IMG/VR virus record: IMGVR_UViG_3300028392_000050
Coordinates: 23,294 to 87,293 of that record
Length of the DNA: 64,000 bases
Direction: 5' to 3' (one strand)
From: a virus
Part shown: one piece after another, positions 45,530 to 51,353 of the stretch
How positions within the stretch are numbered: the stretch's first letter is position 1
How the letters are laid out: the number at the start of each line of letters is the position of its first letter
The notes under the pieces: generated by a model
What the model saw: only the letters and a program-made list of their open reading frames with translations
Databases searched by the model: none
What the model was told of the DNA's origin: nothing
Program-made: the position numbers and the translations under genes

Positions 45530-47575
45530 ATGGCGACATACAACCGCCCTGGAGTATACCTAGAAGAAGTACCGTCTTCCGCAGCGCTATCCTCTACCCC
45601 TACTGCTACAGTAGCCACTTTCATTGGCGCTTTTGCAAAGGGACCCACTACCACTACTCTAATAACCTCATGGAATCAATTTGTTTCTTTGTACGGTGAC
45701 ATTGTATACAACACTGCAGATACTGACGGCGCTATTGCTGTTTATCTATTTTTCTCAAACGGAGGAAGCCAGTGTTACGTAAAGCGCGTAGCAGCTTCGG
45801 ATGCAGTCGCTTCTACTGTCGCTATTAAGGGAAACGCTACAGTTGCTATTGCTACTGGCTCTACTGTTGCGCAAAGCGGAACCTCAACTACCTACACCAG
45901 TGCCGCTCACGGTCTAAAGGTTGGTCAGACTGTAGTGGTTTCAGGAGTTATAGCTTCTACTGCAACCCCTACTAACGTTTATCAGGGTACTTTCGTAGTA
46001 ACTGCTGTCCCTAGTACAACTACCTTTACCGTCACAAATGCTTCTGCTCCTGCTACTGCTGTTGCAATTACAACTGCTGGTACAGTTACATCTCAAAGCA
46101 GCACCACAGAGCTTACTCTTACTGCTAAAAACCCTGGTGCTTGGAGCAACGGACTTTACTACGAAATCTCAAGCTCAACATCAAGCACCACATACCCAGG
46201 TAAGTACTTTAACTTGGCTATCTACTCTGGCGGTACCACTTCTGGTTACATTGTAGAGCGTTTTAGCGACCTTACTTTACTGTCTTCAGAGCCGTCTTAT
46301 GCACCTACTATTATTAACGCCTCATCTAATTATGTAGTTGCTACTGATTCAAACGCAGCAAACCACACTCCAGCTAACTTTGCTAACACAAACACTCCTG
46401 TAACAACTGCTCTTGTTGCTGTAAGCGCCGTGGGTGGAAATGGTGGTACATCAGGTACAACCGTTACCCTCACCGGAACTATCCCAACAGTTAGCGTTGG
46501 AATGGCTGTAATTGGTAAGGGTATTACAAGTGGAACTACTGTAACTGCGTTCAGCAGCCCTACAGTAACTCTAAGCTCTGCTATGGCTGTAGCTGATGGA
46601 ACCTCAATTACATTTGTAAACTCAGCGCTTACTGGCGGAACTGATGGCGCATCACCTGTAAGTGATACTAACGTTGCTAGTGCTGTTTCAAGTTTGGACG
46701 CAATTGCGCAGCCTATTTTGCTAAATGCTCCTGGTATTACAGATGCTACTAACGTTAACACACTTCTTTCATACGCTTATAACCGCGGAGATGTGTTTGT
46801 AATTATTGACCCTACAAAGTCTACTTCTGACGTTACAAGCCAGCTTACTTTAACTAACTCATACACTGGTGGCTCATCCGGTTCTGCGGCACAAGGATTT
46901 GGTGCGGTTTACTTCCCTAACCTAACTATTCCAAACCCTACATCTAGCGCACCTGGTTCAACTATTACTGCTTACCCAGGTGGAGCAATTGCGGCTAAGT
47001 ACGCGACTACTGATGCATCTCGTGGCGTATTTAAGTCACCTGCTGGCCTAGAAGCTCGCCTATCTGGAGTTGTGTCAGTTACTTCTCTAACTAACACAGA
47101 GCTAGATTACCTAAACAATGGAACATCAAGCCCTGATACATTTGCTAAGGCTACTCCAGTAAACGCTATTCGCTACATCCCAGGTTCTGGAATTGTGGTA
47201 ATGGGTGCGCGTACATTGAGCAGCACTTACAACAACCGTTATATCTCAGTACGTAGAAGCCTTATTTACTTACGTAAGGTTCTTACTGATTCAACTGCAT
47301 TTGCTCTATTTGAGTCAAACGACGAACGTCTATGGAACCGTCTACAGACTACTTGTGAAGCAATCCTTATTAACTTCTGGCAATCTGGAGGTCTAAAGGG
47401 AACTACAGCGTTGGACGCTTTCTATGTTAAAGCAGACAGCTCTATCAACACCGTATCCAGCGTTGCTGCTGGTGAGGTTCACCTAGAAATCGGTGTAGCC
47501 CTTCAGCGCCCTGCTGAATTTGTGGTAATCCGTATTAGCCAGTACGACAGTGGTTCTGTTGTAACAATCCTGTAG
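45530..47575 (+). CDS. Tail sheath protein
   Basis: 681 residues. N-terminus MATYNRPGVYLEEVPSS and LYGDIVYNTADTDGAIAVYLFFSNGGSQCYVKRV are typical of contractile sheaths. The C-terminal domain has VNAIRYIPGSGIVVMGARTLS, YISVRRSLIYLRKVLTDSTA, FALFESNDERLW and LEIGVALQRPAEFVVIRISQ, all conserved sheath elements. Residues about 100-185 and 300-370 are inserted beta modules (HGLKVGQTVVVSG..., VGMAVIGKGITSGTTVTA...) that lengthen it relative to typical 450-500-residue sheaths. Confidence 0.96.
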   Translation: MATYNRPGVYLEEVPSSAALSSTPTATVATFIGAFAKGPTTTTLITSWNQFVSLYGDIVYNTADTDGAIAVYLFFSNGGSQCYVKRVAASDAVASTVAIKGNATVAIATGSTVAQSGTSTTYTSAAHGLKVGQTVVVSGVIASTATPTNVYQGTFVVTAVPSTTTFTVTNASAPATAVAITTAGTVTSQSSTTELTLTAKNPGAWSNGLYYEISSSTSSTTYPGKYFNLAIYSGGTTSGYIVERFSDLTLLSSEPSYAPTIINASSNYVVATDSNAANHTPANFANTNTPVTTALVAVSAVGGNGGTSGTTVTLTGTIPTVSVGMAVIGKGITSGTTVTAFSSPTVTLSSAMAVADGTSITFVNSALTGGTDGASPVSDTNVASAVSSLDAIAQPILLNAPGITDATNVNTLLSYAYNRGDVFVIIDPTKSTSDVTSQLTLTNSYTGGSSGSAAQGFGAVYFPNLTIPNPTSSAPGSTITAYPGGAIAAKYATTDASRGVFKSPAGLEARLSGVVSVTSLTNTELDYLNNGTSSPDTFAKATPVNAIRYIPGSGIVVMGARTLSSTYNNRYISVRRSLIYLRKVLTDSTAFALFESNDERLWNRLQTTCEAILINFWQSGGLKGTTALDAFYVKADSSINTVSSVAAGEVHLEIGVALQRPAEFVVIRISQYDSGSVVTIL

Positions 47576-47587
47576 GAGGAAATATAA

Positions 47588-48217
47588 ATGGCAACTAGCG
47601 CAATTTCACGCTTTTCAAAACTAGCTACTGACCCTTTAAGAAATTTTAGGTTCCTGGTTGATTTCCGCGTAACCGGGGATACTGGTGTTCCTGGGTCAGC
47701 TGCTCCTGGTAAAGACAGCTTCTTGAAGTTTAAGGGCGGATTTACATCTGTATCAGGACTTAGCATGACTGTAGACGCAATCAGCTATCGTGAAGGCGGC
47801 ATGAACACCTCCCTGCACATGTTGCCTGGTCGCGTAACTTTTCAGCCAATTACTTTAAGTCGCGGTGTAGTGCTTGGTCAAAAAGAAGGCATTAACTGGT
47901 TTAAGCAGCTATTTGCTGCTGCTTCTGGTGAAGGTATTGCGGGAATTGATGGCTCGTCTTTCCGCTGTGACCTAGACATTTATGTCTTAGACCACCCAGT
48001 TACCGGTGCTCCAGCTATTAGCGCATCAGACATTATTAGCAAGTCTGCGTACAAGATGAAGTTTACTGTGCACAATGCTTGGATTACTGGACTACAGTAT
48101 TCAGATTTGAGCGCATCTGATAACTCATTGATGTACGAAACCATGACACTAGTACATGAAGGACTGTCAATTCAGCTAGCTGACTTTGGTTCAAACGTAT
48201 CTACTACACTTACATAA
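47588..48217 (+). CDS. Tail tube protein
   Basis: 209 residues directly after the sheath gene. FRFLVDFRVTGDTGV at the start, LSMTVDAISYREGG in the middle and YKMKFTVHNAWITGLQYSDLSASDNSLM match the gp19-type tube family, which stacks in hexamer rings inside the sheath. AGGAGG ribosome site. Confidence 0.92.
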   Translation: MATSAISRFSKLATDPLRNFRFLVDFRVTGDTGVPGSAAPGKDSFLKFKGGFTSVSGLSMTVDAISYREGGMNTSLHMLPGRVTFQPITLSRGVVLGQKEGINWFKQLFAAASGEGIAGIDGSSFRCDLDIYVLDHPVTGAPAISASDIISKSAYKMKFTVHNAWITGLQYSDLSASDNSLMYETMTLVHEGLSIQLADFGSNVSTTLT

Positions 48218-48268
48218 TTTAATAATTAAAATCTGATAAAATATTTATAACTAACTAGGAGTATAAAA

Positions 48269-49069
48269 ATGACAAATAATATGTCTACTGACCCGGCTTT
48301 GATTGCACAGTATACGCAAGACTTGGAAAAAGAGCCACCGGTCGAAATTAAAACCGTTGCACCGTCAAACTCAAACGTAATTCTTCCTGGCGGCTTTCTA
48401 GCTAAGGACGGTTCTTTGATTAAATATGGTGAAGTCCGTGAACTAAACGGCATAGACGAAGAAGCCATTTCAAAGGCCGGCTCTGCTGGTAAAGCTCTTG
48501 CTGCAATGTTGCAGCGAGGTGTTATTTCTATTGGGTCTAACCCAGTAGATAAAGCAGACCTTGACGATTTACTAAGCGGTGACCGAGACGCATTGTTAAT
48601 TGGAATTCGTCGAGTTACTTTTGGCGATACAGTTGACTTTGAATTTGCCTGCCCTCATTGTAAAACAGAATTAGAAGTAGCTGTTGATTTGATTAAAGAT
48701 GTTCCTGTAAAGGAGCTTGATGACCCAATCAATGACAGAACATTTACTTATATCTCTAAAAAGCATGGGGCAATTGTTGTAAGCCTACCTACAGGCGCTG
48801 TGCAAAAGAAACTTGTTGAAAACGCCGATAAGACAACTTCGGAGCTCAACACTGTTTTGCTTGCAGGATGTCTTAAGTCTATCAATGGTGAACCATCTCT
48901 AGGTGTTAGCACTGCGCTTACTTTGGGTATGGCTGACCGTGATGGAGTAATTAACGAGATTATTCAGCGCAACCCGGGTCCACGCCTCGGGGAGGTGAAG
49001 ACGACTTGCGAGGCTTGTGGTGAGGATATTCCTCTACCACTGTCGTTAGCCGACTTGTTTCGTCTATAA
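48269..49069 (+). CDS. Tail assembly chaperone / gp26-like baseplate protein (short product)
   Basis: 266 residues. The middle is a zinc-type domain: FACPHCKTELE near residue 128 and TTCEACGEDI near 247, with a helical segment between. This recalls the T4 gp26-type baseplate family and the tail-assembly chaperones that precede tape measure genes. The frame ends at TAA 49067; 49062-49205 continues in the +1 frame (separate entry), as expected for a G/GT-type programmed frameshift. Expression upstream through AACTAGGAG. Confidence 0.82.
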   Translation: MTNNMSTDPALIAQYTQDLEKEPPVEIKTVAPSNSNVILPGGFLAKDGSLIKYGEVRELNGIDEEAISKAGSAGKALAAMLQRGVISIGSNPVDKADLDDLLSGDRDALLIGIRRVTFGDTVDFEFACPHCKTELEVAVDLIKDVPVKELDDPINDRTFTYISKKHGAIVVSLPTGAVQKKLVENADKTTSELNTVLLAGCLKSINGEPSLGVSTALTLGMADRDGVINEIIQRNPGPRLGEVKTTCEACGEDIPLPLSLADLFRL

Positions 49070-49205
49070 AGAAAAAGATTACGAACAACTACTCGACGAA
49101 TATGAAGCACTATCTCGAACATTTGTTGGCTGGACGCTGTCTGACATCAGAAGCCTGTCTGTAAGAGAACGTAGAAATTGGCTCTATAGGGCCAATAGGA
49201 AATAA
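49062..49205 (+). CDS. Frameshift extension of the tail assembly chaperone
   Basis: 47 residues in the +1 frame, beginning VYKEKDYEQLLDEYEALSR and ending RSLSVRERRNWLYRANRK. The frame is open from 49050, has no ATG/GTG/TTG before the conserved part, and matches the WxLxDIRxLxxRER..WL pattern of second-frame chaperone pieces. A ribosome slipping at TTT_CGT_C (49058-49064) from TTT to TTC would give a 311-residue product. The tape measure gene follows 12 bases after. Confidence 0.85.
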   Translation, partial: VYKEKDYEQLLDEYEALSRTFVGWTLSDIRSLSVRERRNWLYRANRK

Positions 49206-49217
49206 AGGTAGAGTAAG

Positions 49218-51353
49218 TTGGCTGTAAAAGACTCATTTGGTTTAGGCGGAGGTTCATCAAAATCTCGCCTAGTCGCTAACCTTACCGAAGAATACCGCAA
49301 ACTTAATAACGTTCTTAAAGATACTGAAAAACTATCTAAGAGCATTGCTAATAACTTAAAAAATTCTTCTGGTGGCAGAGGGTCAAGTGGCGGCGGAGCT
49401 AGCGCCATGAGCAGCATGACGCCTCCTCCGGGCCCAGTAGGCCCGTCAGGACCAGCAGGACCGGCAGGACCGGGAGCTCCAGGAGCTCCTGGAGGACCTG
49501 GTATGGGAGGAACAGGCGGCAGCGGCGGTTTTAGCTTTAGTTCTGCTTTAAGATCAATGGCAGGTGCCGCAGTTGACGCTCTTACGCAAGGTGTAGATGC
49601 GTCTAATTACATTACAAATGATATAGCTCGTCGCAGGTTTGGATTTTTCTCCGGAGTTTATAGCAGGCAAAACGATAACATCGGTACTATAGCTGGTGCT
49701 AAAGCGTTTGCTACTATGTCCAGTCGAGGAACTCCAATTAGTCCTATGGATGCAGCTAATGCGGCTATGTCGGGTACGTCAAGCGGTCTTATGCCCGGAC
49801 TTAAAAACTATAACACCATTATGAACAGCGCAGCTGGTATCTCTAACGTAATGCCTGGAGTAGGTCTTGAAGGCGGTATGGGTGCTGTAGCGGCACTTAA
49901 CCAAGGTTCAAGCGTTAATAAACTTCGTATGATTGGTATTCAAGTACGAGACCAAAACGGATTTATGCGTGGGGTTGAGGATATTGCTCGTGACCTCTGG
50001 AATTCTTTAAACAGAAGTAAGTCTGGAATGGGTAAGATATCAGAGTCTGACCTTTCTTACTCACTGCAGCCTGGTAACTCGGTAGCTATGCTATTAGACC
50101 AATATTTTGGTACGGATGCTGTACTTAAACAGTCTATTATTTCTTATTTATTTCAATTTGCTAAAAATAATGGTGTAAAAGTTGGTGGTGGTTATCAAAC
50201 TACTGAAGGTAAAAAAGAACTATTAACTACTGGAGCAAACCCAGGAATTACTCAAAGCATCGGTACTAGAAATCAACTTGGCCAGGCAAATATAAATGCA
50301 TATACTACTGGTGGTATTTTAGGTATTCAATCAGCAAACGACACAATTAATAACTTTACCAAAATGGCTACTGCGTTAGCGCCTGTTCTTCAAGCATTTG
50401 TTACAGCCACTACTTTTACTCAAACCCTTACAAGTGCTGGTAATGGTGCCGGCGGTATTATTACTAAAGACCTTCTTGAGGGAGCTAAAGGAGCTGCTCA
50501 AGGCACAATTGATGCCGTAAAGCCCTTTTTAAAAAATCCAACTGTATTAACTATTTTTGGAGCTATGTGGGCTACACTCAGCGGAATTTCTGCTACGCAG
50601 CAAATGCAAGATGAGTATTTAGCTGATTTAATTGCTAGTGGAAAAGCTGACCCTAACACTAAAGGGACTAATAGTTTTGGTACTAAACAGGACCAGGTAC
50701 TTAAAGACCACCCAGATTTAGCGGCGTTTTTGGGTAACCCTACTTCTTACGATTTACCTGGCACTGGTGGAAATGGCGGGTCTCCTAACCCAACCCCTAC
50801 TCCAACCCCGATGGTAACCCATAACTCTAGCGATTTGCTAAACCAAACTGTGCATCCTAAAGGATTTAAACAATCTAACGATACTATCCTAGGATGGGCG
50901 GGTTCAGTATTGAAGCAAATTGGTGCTCCAGTTACTGCTACTAACTTAGCTGCAATGGTTTCATGGGTTAATAGTGAAAGTTCTTCTGCCAATAATTATC
51001 AAACTTGGAACAACCCACTAAATACTACTCGTAAAGATGCTAACTCAGTTTCTAAAAACTATGCCGGTGTGCAAGAATTTGCAAATGAAGACGCCAGTAT
51101 TGCAGCAACTGTGGCAACTTTAAAACAAAGTAATTTTAAAGATATTTTATCTGTTTTGCAAAAAGACCAAGGATTTAGCGCTTTAAATATGGCTGTACAG
51201 GGCGATAAATGGGGAACTAATAATATTTCCCCAGCTAAAAGCGTTGTAATTAATATTAATGGTGCTCAGGATACTGTAAGTATTGTAGAGGCTATTAAAC
51301 AATATCTAGCGGATGAAGCAATTAGGGCTCACGCTTCTGGTGGAGGTCACTAA
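49218..51353 (+). CDS. Tape measure protein with lysozyme-like domain
   Basis: 711 residues, TTG start at 49218 after AAAGGTAGAG. Its place after the chaperone defines it as tape measure. N-terminal coiled coil (NLTEEYRKLNNVLKDTEKL), then a collagen-like Pro/Gly stretch near residues 74-95 (GPSGPAGPAGPGAPGAP), a helical and Gly-rich middle with a possible membrane helix (VLTIFGAMWATLSG), and a C-terminal lysozyme-like domain (about 560-660) beginning GAPVTATNLAAMVSWVNSES with NNPLNTT. Typical tape measures in contractile phages are of similar length; the domain probably cuts peptidoglycan during injection. Confidence 0.85.
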   Translation: MAVKDSFGLGGGSSKSRLVANLTEEYRKLNNVLKDTEKLSKSIANNLKNSSGGRGSSGGGASAMSSMTPPPGPVGPSGPAGPAGPGAPGAPGGPGMGGTGGSGGFSFSSALRSMAGAAVDALTQGVDASNYITNDIARRRFGFFSGVYSRQNDNIGTIAGAKAFATMSSRGTPISPMDAANAAMSGTSSGLMPGLKNYNTIMNSAAGISNVMPGVGLEGGMGAVAALNQGSSVNKLRMIGIQVRDQNGFMRGVEDIARDLWNSLNRSKSGMGKISESDLSYSLQPGNSVAMLLDQYFGTDAVLKQSIISYLFQFAKNNGVKVGGGYQTTEGKKELLTTGANPGITQSIGTRNQLGQANINAYTTGGILGIQSANDTINNFTKMATALAPVLQAFVTATTFTQTLTSAGNGAGGIITKDLLEGAKGAAQGTIDAVKPFLKNPTVLTIFGAMWATLSGISATQQMQDEYLADLIASGKADPNTKGTNSFGTKQDQVLKDHPDLAAFLGNPTSYDLPGTGGNGGSPNPTPTPTPMVTHNSSDLLNQTVHPKGFKQSNDTILGWAGSVLKQIGAPVTATNLAAMVSWVNSESSSANNYQTWNNPLNTTRKDANSVSKNYAGVQEFANEDASIAATVATLKQSNFKDILSVLQKDQGFSALNMAVQGDKWGTNNISPAKSVVININGAQDTVSIVEAIKQYLADEAIRAHASGGGH

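Follow-up and report, generated by a model that had tools for sequence, protein, structure and literature searches.

The tail genes and the overlapping frame

The window considered here, a stretch of 64,000 nucleotides, is taken from a virus contig of 87,293 bp. On its plus strand the genes for a tail sheath protein (45530..47575; PHROG 17610 and 23, PF17482) and a gp19-type tail tube protein (47588..48217; PF06841, E=7.8e-24) are followed by an ORF encoding 266 amino acids (48269..49069), a gene in the tape-measure position (49218..51353; 711 amino acids from a TTG start) and then baseplate genes of the GPD and gp25 types. The gene at 49218..51353 had no family match in the same Pfam and PHROG searches and is assigned as the tape measure by its position and length; its counterparts in SP-15 and LIS04 carry that annotation. 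Near its N-terminus it encodes a collagen-like GPxGPxG stretch (49424-49505; GPVGPSGPAGPAGPGAPGAPGGPG).

The ORF 48269-49069, which lies between tube and tape-measure-position genes as frameshifted chaperone genes do, matches PHROG 150 and PF12322 (T4_baseplate; E=2.9e-13, 50.4 bits against a Pfam gathering cut-off of 24.5), the family of the T4 gp26-type ‘baseplate hub’ proteins. Its product was modelled alone with AlphaFold (pLDDT 92.6, alignment of 59 rows). When this model was compared with the PDB using Foldseek, 2ob9, the tail assembly chaperone of HK97, gave the two best matches (probability 0.90 and 0.94, with E of around 0.4), every other listed match having a probability of 0.08 or less; viral models matching the fold include those of T4-like hub assembly proteins, gp26 and SP-15. 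The profile of the short form found no match among PDB sequences. With moderate confidence, the predicted fold is that of a chaperone, closest to 2ob9. Family, predicted fold and gene order together support what the initial annotation had proposed, a tail assembly chaperone encoded just before the tape measure, here in a phage with a contractile tail.

At its 3' end the 0 frame reads GCC GAC TTG TTT CGT CTA TAA, with the stop codon at 49067-49069. Directly after a TAG at 49047-49049 the +1 frame opens at 49050 and runs to a stop at 49203-49205 without any ATG, GTG or TTG; the sole near-cognates, CTG and ATC, are both inside the conserved domain described below. The sequence TTTCGTC is found at 49058-49064. 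The coordinates given in the initial annotation are all correct. The putative shift site, TTG_TTT_C (49055..49061), would allow tRNA-Phe to slip from TTT (49058-49060) to TTC (49059-49061), with CGT as the 0-frame A-site codon, followed by the sense codon CTA and the stop (49061..49069). The predicted long form, 48269..49205 or join(48269..49060,49062..49205), would have 311 amino acids, the +1-frame extension (49059..49205) contributing 48 codons and a stop. The fused product reads ...SLADLF-VYKEKDYEQ... across the junction and, examined from residue 44, is stop-free. Five other genes of the window likewise have, beyond their stop, an alternative frame that lacks a start and stays open for 40 codons or more. 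An open frame by itself is thus not significant, and the case rests on the relatives of this gene.

Conservation of the putative slip site and the extension

Relatives were found by scanning with peptide patterns that leave out the shift site and, with named phages added, amounted to 343 loci, many of them redundant. In 326 of these an HMM of the extension matches the +1 frame near the 0-frame stop, and reduction at 90% identity left 140 non-redundant sequences. Most relatives come from IMG/VR contigs; those with names are phages of Streptomyces and, for the most part, genomes of actinobacteria. One close relative (L011, around 1987-2772; 90% identity) carries a premature stop in the upstream part of its chaperone frame and is either misassembled there or a broken copy.

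In 325 of the 326 loci the base after TTT is C or TTT runs into the stop codon; the exception (L146) has a broken upstream frame. All 140 non-redundant relatives have TTT at the slip position; the next base is C in 135, and in the other five TTT stands directly before the stop (TTT TAA or TTT TGA), a variant that occurs at two places of the tree. The information content at the wobble position of the slip codon is 2.0 bits, compared to 0.04-0.42 at most neighbouring wobble positions and 1.34 bits at that of the preceding codon. Furthermore, UUU is kept even in GC-rich, Streptomyces-type loci that otherwise favour UUC: among 36 loci with a GC content of 50% or more, the remaining Phe codons are TTT 32 times and TTC 218 times, whereas the site is TTT in every case. 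The initial annotation had offered TTT CGT C as the motif to be sought in relatives. Its UUU_C part is indeed conserved, whereas the A-site codon varies (CGN in 106 of the 140, CAR in 17, CTN in 10, CCG in 2 and a stop in 5). The preceding codon is YTG in 120/140, so ending in G in 120 of the 133 cases where it encodes leucine, while YTG makes up around 28% of upstream Leu codons. The 0-frame stop lies 0-3 codons past TTT in 138/140. What is conserved at the core is thus YUG_UUU_C and not UUU_CGU_C.

The end that had looked conserved in the window sequence is part of a domain of about 50 amino acids (GW.L.DIR.LS.RER..W) that the +1 frame continues in all 326 loci. The conserved +1 peptide starts at the slip Phe, and upstream of this residue the +1 frame is unconserved. 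Variation by codon position (0.31/0.15/0.47) and dN/dS, mostly about 0.1-0.5, indicate that the extension is under purifying selection. Comparison of profiles by hhalign aligned it with P2 E' (Prob 90, E 1.6e-6) and with its counterpart in the homologues from proteobacterial prophages (Prob 92); none of 100 column-shuffled profiles reached the real score in either alignment. PF06528 (Phage_P2_GpE) is matched weakly by 10 of 25 extension members, and the window extension scores 15.1 bits against it, below the Pfam gathering cut-off of 23. These profile alignments support a relationship to P2 E', which the window extension resembles while not being a member of that Pfam family.

Records of the named phages were also inspected. 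Those of BRock, LuckySocke, Alone3, GiJojo and pSt2308 contain no joined (frameshift) gene at the chaperone locus. In BRock (L002, 4963-8040) ‘endolysin’ is the name given to the gene in the tape-measure position, and just before this gene the frameshift extension, truncated at its 5' end, is recorded as the small ORF gp135. Genes of the family with a +1 site are also present in bacterial contigs of Streptomyces, Saccharothrix, Actinomadura, Nonomuraea and Terracoccus (L326-L329, L331-L337), and genes with a -1 site in those of Lysobacter and Ramlibacter relatives (L338-L342); these are probably prophages or phage-tail-like elements.

The proposed slip and its alternatives

The best explanation, to which we would give a probability of about 0.9, is that ORF 48269-49069 encodes a tail assembly chaperone in which a +1 slip of tRNA-Phe from UUU to UUC yields a 266-amino acid short form and a 311-amino acid long form. 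It is supported by the conserved site and extension, purifying selection, gene context and the predicted chaperone fold, and the Phe-tRNA shift put forward in the initial annotation is strengthened by the occurrence of UUU_C in essentially every actinophage-type relative, close or distant. From this evidence we infer translation of the long form, its efficiency, P-site slippage of a single tRNA, the ratio of products and how these contact the tape measure and the tube.

Most ribosomes would terminate at 49067 and produce the short form. In a minority, tRNA-Phe in the P site on UUU, with the A site waiting on CGU, would re-pair one base forward on UUC; in the simplest reading this exchanges a wobble pair for a perfect one. 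Reading would then go on with GUC UAU AAA..., adding a C-terminal helical domain that would correspond to P2 E' or lambda T. If lambda G/GT is taken as the model, the tape measure protein would be coated by many copies of the short form and few of the long, and the extension would recruit tail tube subunits. The variant with UUU directly before the stop, seen at two places of the tree, fits a slow A site, and the YUG codon in the E site may help the shift.

No conserved stimulator was found. Over the 60 nt downstream of the site, RNA structure is on average no better than in shuffled sequences (mean z -0.32; 21% below -2), SD-like tetramers 3-7 nt upstream are scattered among the relatives with none conserved, and Rfam gave no match over 48200-49400. 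The efficiency of the shift could therefore be low. Pausing at rare codons is unlikely to drive the shift in general: among Arg codons, CGT is the one used most in the window, and CGC or CAG occupies the A site in GC-rich relatives. In-frame TTT_C is depleted genome-wide (odds ratio 0.19, p 9e-11); many NNY codons are also depleted before C, less strongly, and avoidance of in-frame TTT_C is only suggestive. GATC is strongly depleted across the whole window (23 sites against around 130 expected, 15 of the 23 between 16 and 26 kb), and within its coding sequence a C hardly ever comes after GAT. A restriction or modification site may be avoided here, the stretch at 16-26 kb differing in composition.

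Four other readings were weighed. The frameshift could be real and the protein a structural part of the baseplate hub rather than a chaperone. The names of the family and of its records say baseplate hub, and the presence of gp26 in the T4 hub is debated (PMC3004832). Against this are the match to the HK97 chaperone fold, the P2 E'-like extension, the place before the tape measure gene and the two-product design; furthermore, T4 gp26 and gp51 are themselves listed as hub assembly chaperones (PMC3004832). This reading is improbable, if the least so of the four.

Alternatively, the same frame could be entered by a -2 shift, as in phage Mu, which would add one residue at the junction; the direction of the shift is not visible from sequence alone. 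However, a -2 shift would force the Phe anticodon GAA to pair in most relatives with UGU, and with CGU, CCU or UCU in those that have GCG, ACC or ATC before the slip codon, whereas after a +1 shift it re-pairs perfectly with UUC, and the conserved feature is the T or C that follows TTT. A -2 shift is on these grounds very unlikely. Equally hard to sustain is a separate small protein with its own start or made by re-initiation after the stop, even though in the records of BRock, LuckySocke and GiJojo the downstream part stands as a small ORF by itself: the window has no ATG, GTG or TTG in this frame, such codons in relatives occur at varying places, often inside the conserved domain, with none conserved as a start, and an independent gene would have no need of an invariant UUU_C in the upstream frame. 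Finally, a sequencing error or decaying gene, in which one indel splits a single frame, would be in keeping with the start-less frames after five other window genes and can be dismissed in view of the purifying selection and of the same offset in 326 loci from different assemblies and isolated Streptomyces phages, two other metagenome assemblies (L008, L009) having the same sequence across the site. Sequencing error and an internal start were the two outcomes against which the initial annotation had itself warned.

Homologues and known frameshifting systems

The +1 slip at UUU_C is not the only arrangement found in this gene family. In the proteobacterial prophage homologues the same extension lies in the -1 frame at GCT TTT TTT TTG. 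All 80 cyanophage-type loci have a gene ending TTT TTC NNN stop, with the extension in the -1 frame in the loci displayed; a simple motif filter recognised -1 in 38 of them and +1 in none. Homologues in cyanophages and proteobacterial prophages thus appear, from these motifs, to use -1 shifting at U_UUU_UUY. In two cyanophage records (L347, L348) the extension is annotated as a separate small ‘baseplate hub assembly catalyst’ ORF; in S-SCSM1, one of the two, the reading is +1 and an indel may be present. Firmicutes phages have a +1 extension adjoining TTT TTT CAC (SP-15), TTT TTT AGT (LIS04) or TTC TTT CGT (GXN1).

T4 is a stated exception to the chaperone frameshift rule (PMC5009743). Its gp26 and gp51 (L343, 3303-4729) both belong to PF12322 and form sister clades in the tree (98/91), a placement that long branches make provisional. 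The last 50 or so amino acids of gp51 align at Prob 96 and E 1e-9 with the extension of the cyanophages, and less well with that of the actinophages (Prob 31, 0/100 shuffles). It seems from these alignments that T4 has split the two forms into paralogues, gp26 as the short and gp51 as the long; gp51, which is essential and of unknown function according to a review (PMC3004832), would thereby gain a testable role. We consider it probable, with distinctly less confidence than for the window gene itself, that the UUU_C +1 shift is the standard route to the long chaperone in Actinobacteria myophages and, probably separately, in some Firmicutes phages, with -1 shifting in homologues and gp51 as the long chaperone of T4. 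As +1 shifting, -1 shifting and apparent gene duplication reach the same two-product outcome within one gene family, selection is suggested to act on the making of two forms and not on the direction of the slip.

This phage and hundreds of relatives appear, then, to make two versions of a chaperone by skipping one base at UUU-C just before the stop, a deeply conserved +1 shift whose signal is minimal, consisting of YUG_UUU_C with a stop close by. The finding corrects annotations that miss the extension or treat it as a separate small gene. In P2 (E/E+E') and lambda (G/GT), as proposed for the window gene, two products come from one gene just before the tape measure by a shift near the 3' end, and P2 E', a documented -1 frameshift product, is likewise a short C-terminal helical domain. 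P2 and lambda, however, shift -1, while the window phage would shift +1 on one tRNA and has an upstream protein of the T4 gp26 type. T4 gp26 and gp51 share the Pfam family of the window protein, and the C-terminal domain of gp51 resembles the extension, but they are two separate genes with no frameshift.

The RF2 gene, prfB, also uses a +1 P-site slip, at CUU_UGA, as part of its autoregulation, and the phage sub-variant with UUU_UAA or UUU_UGA is similar to it; the phage sites differ in having no conserved Shine-Dalgarno sequence 3 nt upstream, and lie in a different gene with no autoregulation logic.

Frameshifting in tail chaperones is general and mostly -1 (PMC5009743); nearly all phages slip backward, and here the slip would be forward. 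The initial annotation was justified in calling this unusual, since homologues elsewhere use -1 and the published +1 case is archaeal. The typical -1 heptamer X_XXY_YYZ is absent from the window, where the site is TTG_TTT_C; this is the only departure from frameshifted chaperones among the criteria assessed, and the gene is therefore regarded as a widely conserved bacterial-phage +1 variant. In the literature searched, outside which most subscription papers lay, no report of a +1 shift in these phages was found. A +1 chaperone shift as such has a precedent in the archaeal myovirus HSTV-2, where it is described as very likely (PMC5009743) and the overlap contains TCC TTT CGC; there the upstream protein has no PF12322 match, the host is archaeal and the precise shift site is putative. 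What would be new is its wide conservation in bacterial phages.

For eukaryotic viruses, UUU_CGN sites have been put forward as a class of +1 frameshifting (PMC3498833, PMC5052127), among which influenza PA-X shifts at about 1% (PMC3498833). The likeness to PA-X drawn in the initial annotation stands for UUU_C, here in the 0 frame within the overlap, and for CGN as the commonest A-site codon (CGT in the window); like PA-X and the plant amalgaviruses, the phage site would use a P-site UUU_C slip with no strong RNA structure required. It does not extend to the preceding codon, which is YUG in the phages and UCC in the eukaryotic viruses, and the phages also have other A-site codons and a stop nearby. 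The slip core would nevertheless be the same as in influenza PA-X and the plant amalgaviruses, but on bacterial ribosomes, where genetic dissection is possible.
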